From an archaeon (lineage in GTDB: Archaea > Thermoproteota > Bathyarchaeia > TCS64): a stretch of DNA of 7,104 nt. The notes beneath the pieces are model-generated. The model saw only the letters and a program-made list of their open reading frames with translations, had not been told where the DNA came from and made no database searches. Location: assembly GCA_020444005.1 (NCBI GenBank), contig JAHLLU010000305.1:1-7104 (forward strand), given 5' to 3'. The translations under genes and the position numbers were made by a program. Of this stretch, positions 202-7,104 are shown one piece after another; position 1 is the stretch's first letter, and every line of letters starts with the position of its first letter.

Positions 202-271
202 GTATAACAATTAAATTCACCAGATCCCAAAAGCCTGCGGCTTTTGGTCCAGGTGATTCCCTACGTTATAC
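202..271 (+). other. attC-1 recombination site
   Basis: The outer arms R'' GTATAAC (202-208) and R' GTTATAC (265-271) are exact reverse complements and fit the GTTRRRY family loosely. The inner arms are TCACC (217-221) and GGTGA (252-256). Extending the stem outwards leaves one unpaired T on the left arm, as expected for the extrahelical bases that orient attC recombination. The centre is a perfect 9-bp hairpin (227-235 with 239-247, loop TGC). The site lies just behind one gene and 2 bases before the next start codon, as in cassette arrays. The orientation places the integrase, if any, to the left of the window. Confidence 0.85.
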
Positions 272-273
272 GT

Positions 274-879
274 ATGGCAACGATGAATCCTATCATACAA
301 TTCGAAGCTACGGTGGACGCTATCTATGGTGTCTATCTGGATTCAACCACCGGATTTGACAAGCTTCGCGGTTGGCTGGAACAACAACAGCAGGATTCGC
401 TTCGTCGGTTTAAGGAATCTAAGCCGGAACTTGCAACAACAGAATATCTGGACTCTACGCTATTCATTTATGGCAAAGGGGACCCGAACAAACCTGACGC
501 AGTTGAACTTCACCGCTGCACGCAGGGTCAGTATAAAGAGCGCAACTCGCAAGCCGGTCTGAATTTTTTGTTCATCGGTAACATGGTGTTGGTGTCTATA
601 TACCAGTTTTGGGAAGACCACTTTCGCGCTGAAGTCGCCACCTATCTCAATATGGACAAAAATGATCTTAAAGAATCGATCATGGGAGATATCCGCCATT
701 TGAGACGTTCAATCGTCCATCATGCGGGCATTGCGCTTCCTGAGGTAGAGCGGTGTGAAATCTTGCGTTGGTTTAATGAGGGAGACGTCGTGTACCTCGA
801 CAAAGAGAAATTCGAAACAGTTATTTACGAGATAAAGAGGATGGTTAAGGGTCTCATGAATAGGAATGAAAACGTATAA
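274..879 (+). CDS. HEPN-like domain protein, 201 aa (integron cassette)
   Basis: The gene encodes a mostly helical, presumably cytoplasmic protein with no signal peptide. Its best functional clue is residues 139-151, where R144/R145 precede H149/H150 in an R-x4-H arrangement ending in HHAG. This resembles the catalytic motif of HEPN ribonucleases, in which a helix such as NDI(R)xxIVHxxG ends in the active-site histidine. A preceding hydrophobic helix (about 96-118, rich in F/I/L/V/Y/W) could be the other core HEPN helix. HEPN proteins are commonly RNases in toxin-antitoxin or abortive-infection systems; an RNase role here is inference. I place the start at ATG 274, directly after attC-1, because an in-frame ATG at 244 lies inside the attC stem; ATG 283 is also possible. 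No strong Shine-Dalgarno is visible, which is common in cassettes. The stop TAA (877-879) lies inside the R'' arm of attC-2. No partner antitoxin gene is adjacent in the same cassette. Confidence 0.8.
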   Translation: MATMNPIIQFEATVDAIYGVYLDSTTGFDKLRGWLEQQQQDSLRRFKESKPELATTEYLDSTLFIYGKGDPNKPDAVELHRCTQGQYKERNSQAGLNFLFIGNMVLVSIYQFWEDHFRAEVATYLNMDKNDLKESIMGDIRHLRRSIVHHAGIALPEVERCEILRWFNEGDVVYLDKEKFETVIYEIKRMVKGLMNRNENV

Positions 880-933
880 CCTTGCCACTTCAGCCGACCG
901 CAAAAAGCGCGGCGGCTGACCGGCCCGTTGGGC
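874..933 (+). other. attC-2 recombination site
   Basis: R'' is GTATAAC (874-880) and contains the stop codon of the upstream gene. R' is GTTGGGC (927-933), a perfect GTTRRRY match. The inner arms CAGCCG (891-896) and CGGCTG (913-918) pair exactly around an A-rich centre. The R'' and R' arms pair only partly, as is common. The left inner arm resembles that of attC-3 (both contain TTCAGCCGAC), while attC-1 and attC-4 share TTCACCAGAT. Confidence 0.85.
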
Positions 934-973: not shown

Positions 974-2284
974 ATGTTGAAAACCCTAATAGCGCTATTT
1001 AACAAGCAATACGAACCATACCTGTTAAGAATTGGGGATAGAAATATTGCATTGTCTATTTGGGACTATCCCCCCTCTGCCTTTGCTAAATCATTTATAG
1101 AAAAGTGGTCCAACAGCAGGGGGATTGAATACGATTCTGACCCTGTACAAGCTATCAAATCTATTCTCCAGTGTGAAGACAACTGTCTGTTTTGGAAGAA
1201 CTGCAAGGAGTTGCGATCTTTAGCCAATTTGGACGACGATGATATCTTGCTCGAATTCCGAGATAGAATGCGTGGCTTTCAAGATATACATATAGAAGAT
1301 GAGGTTAAGAACTATAAGGACAGAATTGGGCAAAAGGTTGCGCGGATAAGCCCAATCATTAAAGCAATCCAAACGGCACTGGACGAAGCGCGTAAACAAA
1401 AGAATCGAGGGAAGACGTTATATCTCAACAAAGCTTTAGCGGAGTTCACTGAAGCACACGAAACTTATCAGAAGGAGCTTGACGAGGCTTCACTAGTTTT
1501 AAGAGCGGCGAGTAAACTAAAGAGGGAAACTGGCCTTTTCAAAGGATTGTCAACAGTTCTCAACTTCTTTCGGGACTGGGATATTGTACGTCCGTACTTA
1601 AAGATATCATCATTTGATCTATCCTTAGATAATCCGTACAGACACATGATTTGGTCTCCTGTGCCTTTGTTCTACTCTGTTCAAGATAGTTGGGAGCAAA
1701 ATCAGGACAAGAAATTGTGTGTTGATATTATTGATGCGTATTGTGATATCTATAAAATTTTCATGGAGATCGTTAATAACAACTTTAATGAGAAGAGAAA
1801 AGGCGTGTTAATCGAATCGCTAGATTGTGCCAAGTCTGGTCATTTTACAGCGGCATCTTCTCTTTTATACTCGCAAACGGAAGGACTGCTCTTTGATCTG
1901 GCAACCGAAGTCAATAACCATTCGTTTGGTAGTTTACGAATACAAATATTTCAAAATCCCGATGATTTAAGACGATACATAGGTAGTGATGGGAAAGAAA
2001 AAGATTTGCTTAGTATTGCTGGTTTACTGTTTGATTCCCAGTTGACTAAGTTCTTCTGGCCAGGCTTTTTGGAGTATTTCTCTTCTGACTTCTATGTAAA
2101 TAGATGTCATTTGGCCCATGGTGAGATTACTTCGCAGCTTTCCGAACCAGACTACAAGACCATAATGTTGTTTACGATTTCTGTTCTGTATACCTATAAG
2201 GAATTTCTCGATGAAGGAGCGGCTCCAGTATTGTCGGAGTGTTATGTGATGCAAAATGATGTCAAACCAGCCCAACACGGCTAA
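974..2284 (+). CDS. 436-aa protein with C-terminal HEPN-like domain (integron cassette)
   Basis: The start is set by the GAGGTGGGG site. The N-terminal third is unrecognised. Residues about 105-190 are charged and probably form long helices or a coiled coil. The C-terminal part looks like a HEPN domain of the kind found in many uncharacterised bacterial proteins. Near residues 285-303 there is a GHFTAASSLL...TEGLL pattern, a helix where a small-residue repeat is followed by a conserved EG. At 376-383 the segment N-R-C-H-L-A-H-G gives R377-x4-H382 followed by G, the likely active-site motif. No transmembrane segment or signal peptide is evident. The order (regulatory or sensing N-terminus, HEPN at the end) suggests an RNA-cleaving or RNA-binding effector, but this is inference. 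The gene is visibly richer in A/T than its neighbours, consistent with separate acquisition as a cassette. The stop falls within attC-3. Confidence 0.85.
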   Translation: MLKTLIALFNKQYEPYLLRIGDRNIALSIWDYPPSAFAKSFIEKWSNSRGIEYDSDPVQAIKSILQCEDNCLFWKNCKELRSLANLDDDDILLEFRDRMRGFQDIHIEDEVKNYKDRIGQKVARISPIIKAIQTALDEARKQKNRGKTLYLNKALAEFTEAHETYQKELDEASLVLRAASKLKRETGLFKGLSTVLNFFRDWDIVRPYLKISSFDLSLDNPYRHMIWSPVPLFYSVQDSWEQNQDKKLCVDIIDAYCDIYKIFMEIVNNNFNEKRKGVLIESLDCAKSGHFTAASSLLYSQTEGLLFDLATEVNNHSFGSLRIQIFQNPDDLRRYIGSDGKEKDLLSIAGLLFDSQLTKFFWPGFLEYFSSDFYVNRCHLAHGEITSQLSEPDYKTIMLFTISVLYTYKEFLDEGAAPVLSECYVMQNDVKPAQHG

Positions 2285-2328
2285 TTCAGCCGACGCAAAA
2301 ACCGCGCGGCTGATTAGCATCGTTGGTC
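2270..2328 (+). other. attC-3 recombination site, R' arm interrupted by a group II intron
   Basis: R'' is GCCCAAC (2270-2276), a perfect RYYYAAC. The inner stem pairs CTAAT-T-CAGCCG (2281-2292) with CGGCTGATTAG (2307-2317), leaving T2286 as an extrahelical base. The R' arm begins GTTG (2322-2325), but the intron starts at 2326, so the expected GTTGGGC is cut after four bases. Joining the exons at the proposed boundaries would give GTTGGCG, which matches the expected arm in only 5 of 7 positions, so either the 3' boundary or the original arm is uncertain. The upstream gene's stop (2282-2284) is inside the site. Confidence 0.8.
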
Positions 2329-3082
2329 GCGACACGATGTCGCATAATTGATTGTATTAACAGATGTTTTTAGCATCTGAAGAGTACCCGGTATGTTTCT
2401 ACCGGTCCCTAGGTGGACATGCTGCCGTTGCGCTGATGACGGGGTGTGAAGCTCCACCGACAACGTACCGAATTGGGCCGAAATGGTGACAGGACGACCC
2501 CTCCGGGAAGCCTCCCCGGTTAAGGGCTAGGGACGAGTGATATGGTGAAGATATCTGAATGTCCACAAGCATCGTCAAGCTAAACAGGTCTACTGGGGCT
2601 TAATAGGCCGAGGGCTATTCCCCTGTGTGAATAGTATGCGGTCAGGTTGCAAGTCTCTAACGTGCTTGCACGGAACTGTAGTACCGCCGGTGTACAGGAC
2701 GCACCTAAGTCATTCATTGGATCAGTTAGGTGGAACGTGGAAATCTCATATCTCCGCCTGAATATTCAGGCAGGTGAAACCGTAAGGCACACTATTGGAG
2801 CTGTGAGCGTAAGATGCGGGAAAAAGCGAATGCCAGCCTGTAATGGGTTGGATACGGGTTCAAAATTTGCCAGACTCGAAAGAGTGCAAACGTCCCGCAG
2901 GTGTCCCATTACGAGAAATCCGGAAGAACTACATCAAGAGAAGAAAGCAAATGACGGCTGGCCATCAGGCACGCTGGTGCACTTCTCGCCGAAAGGCATT
3001 GTAGCCGTCAGTCAGTATCGTAAAGCTGGTGTGAATTTTATTTCAGCGGGTGGCCCAATAAGGGCTCACTTTTGGGAGGCTT

Positions 3083-3116
3083 GAGCCGTATGATGGGAAA
3101 CTATCACGTACGGTTC
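3083..3116 (+). ncRNA. Group II intron domain V (catalytic hairpin)
   Basis: The 34-nt hairpin begins GAGCCGTA and ends TACGGTTC. The lower stem pairs 8 bp, a two-base CG bulge follows on the 3' side, the upper stem TGAT/ATCA continues, and a GAAA tetraloop caps it. The catalytic triad is AGC (bases 2-4 of the hairpin), the form usual in IIA/IIB-type introns; the IIC intron of Oceanobacillus has CGC. This is the most diagnostic sequence in the element. Confidence 0.93.
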
Positions 3117-3159
3117 TTAGGGGGGAAAGGGGCGGTAACGCCCCTGACCTACCCGGTAC
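3117..3159 (+). ncRNA. Group II intron domain VI and 3' splice site
   Basis: A G-rich strand leads into GGGGCG-GTAA-CGCCCC (3130-3145), a perfect stem with a GTAA tetraloop. It returns through TGACCTACCC; the A at 3151 is the candidate branch point. The intron probably ends GGTAC at 3159, giving the expected AY terminus. The exact end is inferred, not proven. Confidence 0.7.
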
Positions 3160-3238: not shown

Positions 3239-6200
3239 ATGACTAAAAGTGATGGTAAGGATAGGAAGAAAATCATACCGTCTCAGTTTATGAGAGAGCT
3301 TCGGCCCGAATATTATTCGGATACCGAAGACCGGGTGACGTATCTTCTGCATGCTCCGACCTTGGAATATCATTTAGACTCAATTACCTCTCGTAATCAG
3401 ACCCATGATTTTGAAATTTTTTGTCGGAAACTCTGCGAACGTACTATTTGCCCTAACTTGCGAGCTCATACAGGGCCGGACGGCGGTGGAGACAGCAAGG
3501 CTGATGCCGAAACCTACCCCGTAACTGAAGAAATAGCGGCTCTGTTTTATATTGGTGAGGATAAATCAGCGCAGGAGCGATGGGCTTTTGCCTTCAGCGC
3601 AAAAAAGAAGTGGTCAGTCAAGGTTCGCCATGATGTAAAGAGCATTGTTGAAACGAAGCGTGACTATAAAAGGATAATTTTTGTGACGAGTAGATTTGCT
3701 CGGGATAAAGATCGCGCACGCATTGAAGATGAGCTTTCAAAACAATATAGCATTCCAATTACGATTCACGACCGGTCTTGGATTGTAAAAGAAATCATAG
3801 AGAATGATCGCAAGGACATTGCGTACAATTATCTGAAAATTGGCGAGGCCAAAAATGACCCGTTTAGGTTGGGACCAGTAGATTATTCGCGTACGCAACA
3901 GCTTGTAGAGATTGAAAAGTCTATTGATGATCCTGAAGCGTTTAAGGGTATGGAAAAACAAAGGGTTACGGAAGCCCTTTTGGCAGCCAAACTCTCAAGG
4001 AATCTGGAACGCCCTCGCACAGAAACAGATGGCAGATTTCTCCGGGCTATCCGGTTAGCGGAAGCGGGCAGCACCTATAGACAAAAGCTGGAAGCCAAAT
4101 ATGAACATATCTGGACAGCGTTCTGGTGGTTTGATGATTTTCAGTTTCTAAAAGATTCATATGAGGATTTTGAAAGGCTGGCGCTTAAATCAGATCATGC
4201 CTTAAATCTGGAATTTTTGAGTAATCTACTCCAGCTTTTCGTAAACTCGGTTATCCATGGCCATATATCCCGCGACGAATGTAATCTCGATGAGATTACG
4301 GGTAGACTCAAGGAAGCGCTGGAAAAAATTGCTGCAAACAAAGACCGCCCTAATAACGCGCTTGAAGCGCAAATGTCCCTCATCATTATCTGGATGAACC
4401 AAATTATACTCGATAACAAGCGCGAGGAATTGGCAAGCGTTTGGGATGGTTTTTCTGCTGTCTTGGAAAAGGCAAGTGGGCTTGGCGAGTTTAAAGCTGA
4501 CCGGCTAGTGAAAATGGTTGAGATCGCCGGGAATATAGCCGGAAATGATCCCGATTATAACGATCTGGTGGAGAAAACGGCAGAGTTTGTTTCTAATCGG
4601 AAAAGTGAGGCCGAAGGTGCTTTGATACTTCTTAAACGAGCGCAGAAACTCGACTTTGATAACAACTTTGAAATGATCCGTCTACTCGGCAAGGCTGCTA
4701 TAGGGCTGACAAAAAAGGAATATGTGGATCATCTCATCGAAGCCCTTCTACTTTTGATGCTCTCCTATCGAAGCGCTGGACTGTTGTGGGCGGCACGCTC
4801 AAGTTGCGCCTTCCTTGCTGCATCTATCGTTATGGAAGGCGAAGAAGACATTGAATTGCCAGTCAGTTTTGTTCCAACGATGAAAATCTGGGCATGGATA
4901 GCGCTGGAGCTGCGTCACATTCCTGATTTTATCTTTGCGATCCAATTATTGAACGGTGCTCTCGCTACTCTCCCGTTGACAGATGATTCAAAGGAAAATG
5001 TCGGCGAAGATATTAGGGAGCTGGATATGGCCCTAGGCAGCCTGATCCTGAATTTGGATGAAACAAATCTTCGCAAGCTGGAAAACTTGCCGGATATACT
5101 TGACGCGTTAGGGTTATTTGTGGCGCGATCTGCGCTTCTTTATACTCTTGGCCACGCCGATGTTTTACGGGCCGATGGCAGCTTGCCTGAGGTTGAATCC
5201 GATGAAGATACGAACCGTTTTTTTTCAATGCTCGCAAGCCAACCGGTTTCACAAAAACTGCGAGGTACTCTCGTTCTGAACACCGAAGGGCAACAGTCAC
5301 TGAGCACAACCATTCTTGGTATGACCATCGAAATCAATATCGAGGGCAGCACTCAATCCGTCCTTATTGCGGAAGCGGTCCTGGGTTCTTTAGAAGCGTT
5401 CTTTGCCACTGCGATTGAAAAGCGCGTTGTCCCACACACAGAAAAATTACGGTTTAATGTGGTAGAAAACGCGGGAACATCCAAACCATCCTTTGAGATG
5501 AGCGCTATGGATATGAGCGGCACGATCACGTGGCCTGCTGATCTTTCTCCTATGAATCTTGAAAATCAAAGCGATGTCAAAAAATTTTGGGCAGAGGTAT
5601 CCGCCCATGTTCTCGCTACATGCTGTATTATTGAAGATGTAGAGGAATTTCTGAAAGGACTTTATACCGATGAGGCTGCGCAACACAGAATGACAATGGT
5701 GGCCCTCTCTTCTACAAGTTATCACAGGGTCGCAGCAAGAAGCATTTCTCGAATATCAGACTGGCAAGATGCTATACAACAATCATACGAATTGCGTGGC
5801 GAACGCCCGGCACTAACGCTTATTCCACTGACAGAAGAAGAGGATGATACAGAATCTCAAAACGACAGAATGCCTATGCCAAAAGATCATCGGGCATTTA
5901 GTGTCAGGTCGGTTATTGATATTCATGCCTGGGATCAGGCGCAATGGAGGGGAACAGCTTATGCTCAGTTCAGAACTCCTCAGCTTCCATGTATGGCATT
6001 TCTTTTTGAAAATGAGGAAGGCGGCAGAAAAATTTTTCAACGCTGGCGGGAGCGTTTCGGTACACAGGATGAAAATGAAGAGATTTCTATATCCATTATC
6101 TGCCAACTGCCGAAGCAAAACGAACACCACTATTGCGTCCTGATAACCTCCAACTTGCCGGAAACAGACTGCATTAAGCCACACCAAGTAGTTACAATGG

Positions 6201-6436
6201 CCAGCCGGTCTTTGACTATGACACCCGACAACGGTACTAATTTAGAAAGATTTCTGGAATCGTACCGCCGCTTCGGAGCGTTCTACATATTGCCAGCCCT
6301 TTTAGACAATGCAGGAACACCAGAATTTATTTTCGATCTTGCCATACTTAAACGTAATCTCACCATAAAATTGGCGGCAAATCTTGGTGTGCATGATCCA
6401 GAATCTATTGCGCTTCATATCCGGGGCTTTCTTTAA
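3239..6436 (+). CDS. 1065-aa protein with N-terminal Mrr-like PD-(D/E)XK nuclease domain
   Basis: Residues about 50-200 look like a restriction-endonuclease fold of the Mrr type. Helix DFEIFCRKL (57-65) supplies a conserved E59, GPDGGGD (79-85) ends in the likely metal-binding D85, and AFSAKKKW (118-125) provides the [x]-x-K strand with K122, with serine where Mrr proteins usually have Q or E. This is followed by RIIFVTSR (145-152) and IPITIHDRSWIV (172-183), typical later strands of this domain. The remaining roughly 850 residues are unrecognised. Residues about 220-640 are strongly helical with repeated short amphipathic helices, resembling a TPR- or HEAT-like scaffold. The last 250 residues look alpha/beta. 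I see no Walker A motif, so it is not evidently a STAND ATPase or helicase. The architecture (DNA nuclease plus large sensor-like scaffold) suggests a stand-alone anti-phage effector; this is inference. It is unusually long for an integron cassette. ATG 3239 is the earliest in-frame start. Confidence 0.88.
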   Translation: MTKSDGKDRKKIIPSQFMRELRPEYYSDTEDRVTYLLHAPTLEYHLDSITSRNQTHDFEIFCRKLCERTICPNLRAHTGPDGGGDSKADAETYPVTEEIAALFYIGEDKSAQERWAFAFSAKKKWSVKVRHDVKSIVETKRDYKRIIFVTSRFARDKDRARIEDELSKQYSIPITIHDRSWIVKEIIENDRKDIAYNYLKIGEAKNDPFRLGPVDYSRTQQLVEIEKSIDDPEAFKGMEKQRVTEALLAAKLSRNLERPRTETDGRFLRAIRLAEAGSTYRQKLEAKYEHIWTAFWWFDDFQFLKDSYEDFERLALKSDHALNLEFLSNLLQLFVNSVIHGHISRDECNLDEITGRLKEALEKIAANKDRPNNALEAQMSLIIIWMNQIILDNKREELASVWDGFSAVLEKASGLGEFKADRLVKMVEIAGNIAGNDPDYNDLVEKTAEFVSNRKSEAEGALILLKRAQKLDFDNNFEMIRLLGKAAIGLTKKEYVDHLIEALLLLMLSYRSAGLLWAARSSCAFLAASIVMEGEEDIELPVSFVPTMKIWAWIALELRHIPDFIFAIQLLNGALATLPLTDDSKENVGEDIRELDMALGSLILNLDETNLRKLENLPDILDALGLFVARSALLYTLGHADVLRADGSLPEVESDEDTNRFFSMLASQPVSQKLRGTLVLNTEGQQSLSTTILGMTIEINIEGSTQSVLIAEAVLGSLEAFFATAIEKRVVPHTEKLRFNVVENAGTSKPSFEMSAMDMSGTITWPADLSPMNLENQSDVKKFWAEVSAHVLATCCIIEDVEEFLKGLYTDEAAQHRMTMVALSSTSYHRVAARSISRISDWQDAIQQSYELRGERPALTLIPLTEEEDDTESQNDRMPMPKDHRAFSVRSVIDIHAWDQAQWRGTAYAQFRTPQLPCMAFLFENEEGGRKIFQRWRERFGTQDENEEISISIICQLPKQNEHHYCVLITSNLPETDCIKPHQVVTMASRSLTMTPDNGTNLERFLESYRRFGAFYILPALLDNAGTPEFIFDLAILKRNLTIKLAANLGVHDPESIALHIRGFL

Positions 6437-6617: not shown

Positions 6618-6665
6618 TTCCAACCACGCTTTTCACCAGATAAACTGGTGAAGGCGGCGTTATGG
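6618..6665 (+). other. attC-4-like site, interrupted at its end by intron copy 2
   Basis: A perfect 8-bp stem TTCACCAG (6632-6639)/CTGGTGAA (6645-6652) with loop ATAAA forms the inner part. The left outer arm is TTCCAAC (6618-6624) and the right arm begins GTTATG (6659-6664), then the intron starts at 6665. The arms pair only through AAC/GTT, so this is the weakest of the four sites. The left inner arm shares TTCACCAGAT with attC-1. Position behind a gene and directly before an intron, as for attC-3, supports the call. Confidence 0.6.
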
Positions 6666-7104
6666 TGCGACACGATGTCGCATAGTTTGAGTGTACTCAG
6701 GTAGTTATCTGGAGTACCCGGCATGTTCCTGCCCCCCTACGCAGGCGTGCTACCGTCGCGCTGATGACGGGGTGCGAAGCCCTGCGGGTCACGCTGCGGC
6801 GTGATACCGAATCGGGTTTGAATGGTGACAGGAGAACCCCTCCGGGAATCCTCCCCGGTTAAGGGCCAGGGTCGGATGATATGGTGAAGTTAATTGAATG
6901 TTTGTAAGCGTCGTCAACGAGCGACGGACCTACGAGGATTAAAAGGTCTTAGGCCGCTTCCCAGAGTTTGCGGCAAAGGGTCAGGCTGCAGGTCTCCTAA
7001 TCACGCCATGGCGTGACACGGAACCGTTATACCCTCGGCGTAGAGGACACACCTAAGTCATCCATAGGATCAACTGTGTGGAACGTGGTAACCCCGTCCT
7101 TCGC
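6665..7104 (+). mobile_element. Group II intron, copy 2 (5' part, runs off the window)
   Basis: This begins with the canonical GTGCGAC 5' end and follows copy 1 throughout: GCGACACGATGTCGCAT is identical, as are CTGATGACGGGG, CCCCTCCGGGAA, CTCCCCGGTTAAGGG and TGATATGGTGAAG segments. It covers domain I and probably the start of domain II, equivalent to 2326 to about 2750 of copy 1. The copies have diverged clearly elsewhere, with compensatory changes in stems (6718-6723/6730-6733 and 6740-6745/6781-6786). EBS1 candidate CGTGAT (6800-6805) can pair with the upstream exon GTTATG (6659-6664), using wobbles. Whether this copy encodes a reverse transcriptase/maturase lies beyond the window; if so it could serve copy 1 in trans. 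Confidence 0.85.

Follow-up and report, generated by a model that had tools for sequence, protein, structure and literature searches.

The window examined here, by which we mean the whole 7,104-nucleotide stretch (7.1 kb), consists of a gene-cassette array in which four attC-like sites can be read from the sequence (Table 1). The terminal attC of each cassette carries an R'' that complements the R' with which that same cassette begins: 7/7 bases for cassette 1, 7/7 for cassette 2 (the R'' of attC 2, GCCCAAC, is the exact complement of GTTGGGC at 927-933), and 6/7 for cassette 3, where the R' GTTGGAC, joined across an intron copy 1 of 2327-3157, is set against R'' TTCCAAC. In attC 2 this agreement with the start of its own cassette accompanies arms that complement each other at the usual distances (R'' with R', L'' with L'), an attC score of 9.8 (decoy 95% and 99% quantiles, 8.1 and 10.1) and a single-strand DNA fold of the top strand with a z of -3.6; attC 3 has an attC score of 9.0 and a fold z of -3.2. 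Pfam and PADLOC searches gave no match for cassette ORFs 1 to 3; the protein of cassette 3, at 1065 amino acids, is long for a cassette gene.

Table 1. Features of the 7,104-nucleotide window, in order of position
Feature	Position	Strand	Description
attC 0	202..271	+	R'' GTATAAC 202-208 and R' GTTATAC 265-271, complementary; opens cassette 1
Cassette 1 ORF	274..879	+	No Pfam or PADLOC match
attC 1, uninterrupted	874..933	+	R'' GTATAAC 874-880, R' GTTGGGC 927-933; shares repeat D8 with attC 2
Cassette 2 ORF	974..2284	+	436 aa; no Pfam or PADLOC match
attC 2 up to intron	2270..2326	+	R'' GCCCAAC 2270-2276; R' begins GTTGG 2322-2326; arms CTAATTCAGCCG / CGGCTGATTAG; last two R' bases (AC) at 3158-3159, past the intron
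IBS1, CGTTGG	2321..2326	+	Pairs 6/6 with 2657-2662, one G-U
Intron copy 1	2327..3157	+	831 nt, ORF-less, 5' UCGCG ... CCGGU 3'; best boundaries
CAACG	2461..2465	+	Within conserved GACAAYGUA-like DI motif; not EBS1
GCTAA at EBS2 position	2579..2583	+	Could pair with TTAGC 2314-2318 (-13 to -9) of copy 1
EBS1, CTAACG	2657..2662	+	In loop 2645-2673
Domain V of copy 1	3083..3116	+	AGC triad
Cassette 3 ORF	3239..6436	+	1065 aa; no Pfam or PADLOC match; intron copy 1 in its 5' leader
attC 3 up to intron copy 2	6618..6664	+	R'' TTCCAAC 6618-6624; R' begins GTTATG 6659-6664
Intron copy 2	6665..7104	+	5' part only, GTGCG start; RF02012 42.5 bits

Intron copies and their boundaries

Copy 1 is a group II intron at approximately 2326-3159: Rfam RF02012, for the group II D1 region, matches 2387-2527 (71.1 bits), and RF00029 matches domains V and VI at 3081-3157 (66.1 bits), with the AGC domain V triad that a sequence-only reading had already picked out; the bulged A of domain VI, within CCTACCC, was placed by comparison with the Rfam structure. 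The intron interrupts the R' arm of the well-formed attC 2 in sense orientation, in the top strand. That same reading had set copy 1 inside an R' arm, an insertion borne out by the Rfam matches and the R' complementarity, and the strings it quoted are present. There is no reverse transcriptase (RT) in copy 1, nor anywhere within the window, which copy 2 leaves before any RT.

The position at which copy 1 begins was judged from its relatives. Near-identical introns of G878 (2 to 4 differences in 2262) vary at the base right after GTTR (GTTAG|TCGCG, GTTAT|TCGCG), as do two G798 introns that are identical over the approximately 97 bases compared (GTTAA|, GTTAG|). Because near-identical introns differ there, this base belongs to the exon, and by analogy copy 1 would start five bases into R', GTTGG|TCGCG, at 2327; the junction read originally, four bases into R' (GTTG|GTCGCG), is therefore moved by one base. 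A 5' extension of the intron between GTTR and GCGAC is ruled out, both by the differences between near-identical copies at that base and by introns outside the clade (see below) that carry the same two bases before GCGAC. Alternative boundaries for copy 1 restore R' less well: GTTGGCG, 5/7, for 2326-3159 and GTTGACG, 4/7, for 2326-3157. Among the relatives, the 3' intron ends are mostly CCCGGT|, CCCGAT| or CCCGAC|, and the joined flanks restore a seven-base R', GTTRNNY, in which base 7 is a pyrimidine in 20/24 introns, versus 0.44 at 3' exon bases 4-6; this count covers 24 introns out of the 32 delimited at both ends, while L069, L139, L113, L072, L078, L087, L140 and L125 were set aside for want of a GTTR core, for repeating the flank of another intron, or for lack of an identified 3' end. 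The first two intron bases are TC (21/33) or TT (8/33) where the exon is of GTTRN type, and GT (17/21) where it is of GTTRNN type. The ends of copy 1, UCGCG...GU, depart from the GUGYG...AY of group IIB1/CL1 introns, while the 5' end of copy 2, GUGCG, is canonical; altered ends occur in some IIB introns, according to the portions of a review available to us (PMC4424553).

Relatives of the introns and their insertion sites

Scanning GTDB genomes with an 18-base DI pattern containing no exon sequence gave 50 loci, 37 of which hold intron relatives by BLAST, mostly in deltaproteobacterial/Desulfobacterota records, to judge by the record titles. From 35 sequences, a covariance model limited to the opening 133 bases of the intron, and free of exon sequence, was then built and applied to the 29 genomes behind these loci; matches to the model, which include introns outside the lineage, occur in 11/395 genomes of the phylum of G007, 20/257 of its order and 8/369 of the class of G009. 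Joint rescoring gave 87 matches in 84 sources; with duplicates out and EcI5 from an E. coli plasmid in (row L011, which we take to be that intron), 85 rows were aligned. Elsewhere the yield was slight: eight pattern matches in viral contigs lacked a Rfam group II match at gathering level and two further patterns gave none there, phages gave 10 short matches to copy 2 (E up to 10), 721 plasmid records and 365 E. coli genome records matched copy 1 only in part, always over less than 80% of its length, and the copy 2 region had no match in plasmids.

Read in the sense of the cassettes, most flanks carry GTTA or GTTG close upstream of the intron. The 69 rows not classed as outgroup comprise 33 GTTRN|, 21 GTTRNN| and 15 with neither; insertion in the R' arm, GTTRRRY, is after base 5 (GTTRN|, the type of copy 1) or base 6 (GTTRNN|, that of copy 2). 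Base -6 is C in 31/33 sites of the first type, and T(-16) (30/33) and A(-14) (27/33), which fall in the attC L' box, are also conserved. None of 16 hand-classed outgroup rows has GTTR at that place (L096 has GTTC); this outgroup was chosen after the flanks had been seen, and a tree makes the fairer statement. From 62 rows, with EBS1, EBS2 and the first intron columns left out and the root placed by us on L104, a clade of 46 introns emerges with support of 96/97: GTTR lies five or six bases before the intron in 37/46 clade rows versus 2/16 outside. The clade's exceptions are L067 (GTTC), L118 (GTTA four bases before the intron, one base nearer) and seven rows with neither, namely L078, L087, L113, L072, L069, L137 and L075, whose upstream sequence is missing; some of these, L078, L087 and L113 among them, are at sites that look unlike attC. 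When mapped on the tree, the target label, which here also took in L067 and L118, changes 8 times, versus a mean of 17.8 in 500 shuffles, none of which had as few.

Several rows are of interest in their own right. L078 and L087 (Desulfosediminicola, Desulfogranum) are sister introns within the attC clade at other sites, and L087 follows a strong hairpin (z -7.3). L107 and L110, two introns of G671 whose targets read GTTAT|TTGCG, are placed outside the main clade, and their 5' ends are like those of UHB.I2 (see below); they may represent a separate, second origin. In L104 (428-552 and 1207-1332, minus strand), a CL1-type intron outside the attC lineage is nested in another copy, its insertion point lying where domain VI begins, immediately past domain V.

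The 32 introns with both ends differ in their coding content: an RT frame containing YADD is present in 13, another 17 are shorter than 1.1 kb and RT-less, and the remaining two are longer and have no such frame. Of the 17 short introns (380 to 1065 nt), 12 have the appearance of complete ribozymes, at 799 to 1065 nt, and L073, L140, L125, L080 and L084, at 380 to 756 nt, have probably undergone further truncation. Such a share of short RT-less members (17/32) is unusual for bacteria, in which ORF-less introns are rare as stated in the accessible part of the review (PMC4424553).

Exon pairing and the attC likeness of the targets

The 6-bp EBS1-IBS1 pairing of group IIB1/CL1 introns is found in copy 1, between CTAACG (2657-2662) and CGTTGG; in copy 2, the EBS1 CCTAAT (6996-7001) makes 5/6 pairs with GTTATG. 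The sequence-only reading had instead assigned EBS1 to CAACG at 2461-2465, a candidate ruled out by its setting in a conserved motif and by exon pairing at chance level: the GACAAYGUA-like motif is common to most of the 69 aligned introns, and across 53 introns this segment makes a mean of 4.45 of 6 pairs with its own exon against 4.49 when permuted, with 4044/5000 permutations as good (1101/5000 in a set of 16 introns). Counted by hand, chance would place a given 5-mer approximately 0.8 times in 831 nt. For the EBS1 loop at 2654-2664, in contrast, 0/5000 permutations were as good, in a test that excluded 16/69 aligned introns (loops unalignable, judged by eye, or no upstream sequence); here and below, permutations shuffle partners and ignore relatedness among introns. 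The first outgroup, hand-picked after the flanks had been seen, held L107 and L118 (both GTTA) and, in one EBS1 test, also L078 and L087, and the EBS1 and EBS2 tests were redone with groups taken from the tree: EBS1 beats 5000/5000 permutations both outside the clade (14 introns) and within it (44 introns). An unbiased scan of intron against exon windows likewise ranks IBS1-EBS1 first in both lineage (47 introns, z 5.2) and outgroup (16 introns; copy 1 2654-2667, z 6.0). The lineage's EBS1 loop holds a YUAACG or CCUAAC-like stretch that matches the GTTR core.

The second pairing behaves differently in the two groups. The place of EBS2 was taken from the covariation scan of other CL1-type introns, the 16 of the outgroup, in which IBS2-EBS2 (copy 1 2576-2589) is second with a z of 5.9, so that EBS1 and EBS2 together top the 2992 tests; in the scan of 47 lineage introns, the EBS2 window is absent from the 22 best of 3146 tests. 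Outside the clade, where introns related to EcI5 use both IBS1 and IBS2, EBS2 pairs at IBS2 with 5.08 of 6 (12 introns; background 3.46, sd 0.34; 0/5000 permutations), versus 3.83-3.90 at the same places within the clade (41 introns; background 3.64, sd 0.15). The clade's excess with its own partner is weak (3.83 vs 3.55 permuted; 6/5000 permutations), and an earlier EBS2 permutation in the lineage gave a z of 0.5 to 1.8 near IBS2. For GAGC, a common EBS2 core, the attC spacer offers a pairing partner at a frequency slightly above background (0.26 vs 0.16, sd 0.05), and copy 1 itself could form a 5-bp GCUAA-UUAGC EBS2 helix. By these covariation measures, IBS2-EBS2 pairing in the clade appears much weakened, not abolished, and so attC structure may partly replace IBS2, as it does in IIC introns.

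What lies upstream of the introns was assessed with an attC score that counts R'', spacers and arm complementarity, with further GTTR occurrences in the loci themselves as decoys. With groups from the tree and 114 nt upstream, the clade has a median of 6.7 (45 rows), compared with 3.8 outside (14 rows) and 3.6 for 965 decoys (clade vs decoys, Mann-Whitney p 2.8e-8); 17/45 clade rows and 0/14 outside rows exceed the decoy 95% level, and 11/45 clade rows the 99% level. With up to 150 nt upstream, the median is 7.6 (68 rows) versus 4.35 (984 decoys), and 28/56 rows exceed the decoy 95% level and 8/56 the 99% level, row L075 having to be discounted, since its upstream came from another locus. Upstream folds with z below -2 are found in 25/69 lineage stretches versus 0/15 others. 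A per-site shuffle test gives p<0.05 in 9/69 rows. As a group, the upstream exons are attC-like, with modest support for attC at the single site.

Class, mobility and alternative explanations

Another set of observations concerns the integron integrase. IntI cuts R' between G and TT; with that cut at G|TT and the intron four or five bases downstream, the intron would be the 5' end of the following cassette. An intI over the NCBIfam cut-off occurs in 29/40 intron-bearing genomes versus 137/257 genomes of the order, and in four cases on the same contig as the intron (G029:C102, G798:C12, G798:C2, and G398:C1, on which the two are divergent and separated by 3.4 kb). In two G878 contigs (L142, L155), the introns differ at 2 of 2262 bases and 225/226 downstream bases agree, and the upstream attC sites are unrelated beyond AACGTTAT: this fits an intron-led cassette moved by IntI, in one draft genome where misassembly at the 2.3 kb repeat is possible. 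L141 and L155, again with near-identical introns (2 differences in 2262), have unrelated cassettes and differ at R' bases 5 to 7, exon and cassette differences that call for movement of the intron itself.

Our preferred reading, to which we give a probability of roughly 0.78, is that both copies belong to a group IIB, CL1-type lineage that retrotransposes into the top (cassette-sense) strand of attC sites. The YUAACG or CCUAAC-like EBS1 stretch pairs with the GTTR core of R'. We hypothesize that the attC hairpin would be recognised and would partly substitute for IBS2 as a target determinant, in the way that upstream stem-loops do for IIC, that the endonuclease-less RTs of full-length members would act on single-stranded DNA, and that these RTs could serve in trans for the mobility of copies that lack an ORF, copy 1 included. 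As the 5' end of the following cassette, the intron could then travel with it, and could splice out of the sense transcript. Splicing and mobility of the introns, and the recombination competence of the attC sites, are deduced here from sequence.

That the copies might instead be IIC-attC introns merely resembling IIB is hard to credit. Such introns (S.ma.I2 and kin) share the attC target with the lineage, and an upstream stem-loop, weak IBS2-EBS2 pairing and relatives' RTs that lack an endonuclease domain would all suit them; yet they have a class C RT and enter the bottom strand, at TTGT/T in R'' and antisense to the cassettes, whereas our copies lie in the top strand in sense orientation, with a six-base EBS1 and, in copy 1, an AGC domain V in place of the CGC type of IIC. 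The RT of one relative (L061) scores 517 bits to the 6me0 maturase, which we take to be that of the T.el4h IIB/CL1 intron, and 135 to LtrA, 129 to 7uim (presumably a IIC protein) and 123 to 6ar1 (named GsI-IIC in its listing); 7994/8000 candidate proteins scored match this RT at E<=1e-60, so its family is large. EcI5-type CL1/IIB1 introns (L011) are like the lineage in ribozyme architecture and in the places of EBS1 and EBS2, and unlike it in their GUGCG start, in having an RT with an HNH match (0/5 among the relatives' RTs) and in the absence of GTTR before the intron. The idea of an attC-targeting lineage outside IIC, raised from the sequence at the outset, is supported, also well outside the window, by the clade (46 introns, 37 with GTTR), the AGC domain V and the proximity of the L061 RT to 6me0.

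An ordinary CL1 intron with a degenerate EBS2, homing to (C)GTTR through EBS1 and striking attC since arrays are rich in CGTTR and not for their structure, is in our view an unlikely source of this pattern, although EBS1 pairing does account for the invariant bases, C stands at -6 in 31/33 sites of the GTTRN type, and some EBS2 covariation persists in the clade (6/5000). A five-base target occurs everywhere in a genome, yet the attC likeness of the upstream sequences far exceeds that of GTTR decoys from the very same loci, and the conserved T(-16) and A(-14) fall in the L' box. Nor do we think it at all probable that the introns arrived once beside an attC and have since spread only as cassette passengers via IntI: intI is common and the G878 pair does place one intron and its following cassette in two attC contexts, but the L141/L155 comparison sets near-identical introns before unrelated cassettes, with different R' bases, and 13/32 complete members carry an RT frame with YADD.

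Introns at attC or in integrons that are not IIC are already on record, so that the lineage, which the sequence-only reading had expected to be unusual, is supported and is not unprecedented (PMC7923331, PMC9229058, in the passages available). The closest case is UHB.I2, a CL1/IIB1 intron from the Tanatar-5 soda lake (Sonbol and Siam 2021) that directly follows an attC; as far as its description goes (PMC7923331, in part), it resembles the lineage in class, in its place just after attC, in sense orientation, in an RT without endonuclease, and in non-canonical ends (UUGCG...GU) like those of several lineage members, and it differs in being a single case with an IBS2 marked by its authors, a comparison made by description only. 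Its homologues show poor exon conservation except for two 3' exon bases, and the passages describing it contain no lineage, R' register or EBS1-R' match. The same paper attributes to IIC-attC introns a short IBS1 and an upstream stem-loop in place of IBS2, and is the only one we found in the open-access literature devoted to IIB introns at attC (PMC7923331, in part). One CL1 and one class E intron occur in two Shewanella integrons, likewise non-IIC, their insertion site being undescribed in the passages at hand (PMC9229058). The accessible text of PMC8876359 treats IIC-attC introns with no mention of "IIB", and that of PMC8919778 treats group II introns widely with no "attC" in its main text. 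For the R' register, the matched EBS1 and the EBS2 difference, we found no account in the open-access literature so far as its texts were accessible, a scope mostly outside the subscription journals.

We further propose, tentatively and at less than even odds, that a CL1/IIB lineage, independently of IIC, moved away from IBS2 pairing and came to recognise the attC hairpin instead. Because it sits immediately downstream of the IntI crossover (G|TT), the intron would on this view form a self-splicing leader of the next cassette, and IntI could shuffle the two as one; retrotransposon and recombinase would use a common site that neither destroys. So far, it is chiefly IIC introns that have been credited with targeting attC; a second lineage, of CL1 type, would have its own register and strand, and would open the question of what a group II intron requires to adopt a DNA hairpin as its target. 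The division of labour between EBS1 and hairpin is directly testable, and integron arrays would gain a spliceable element that may ride with their cassettes.
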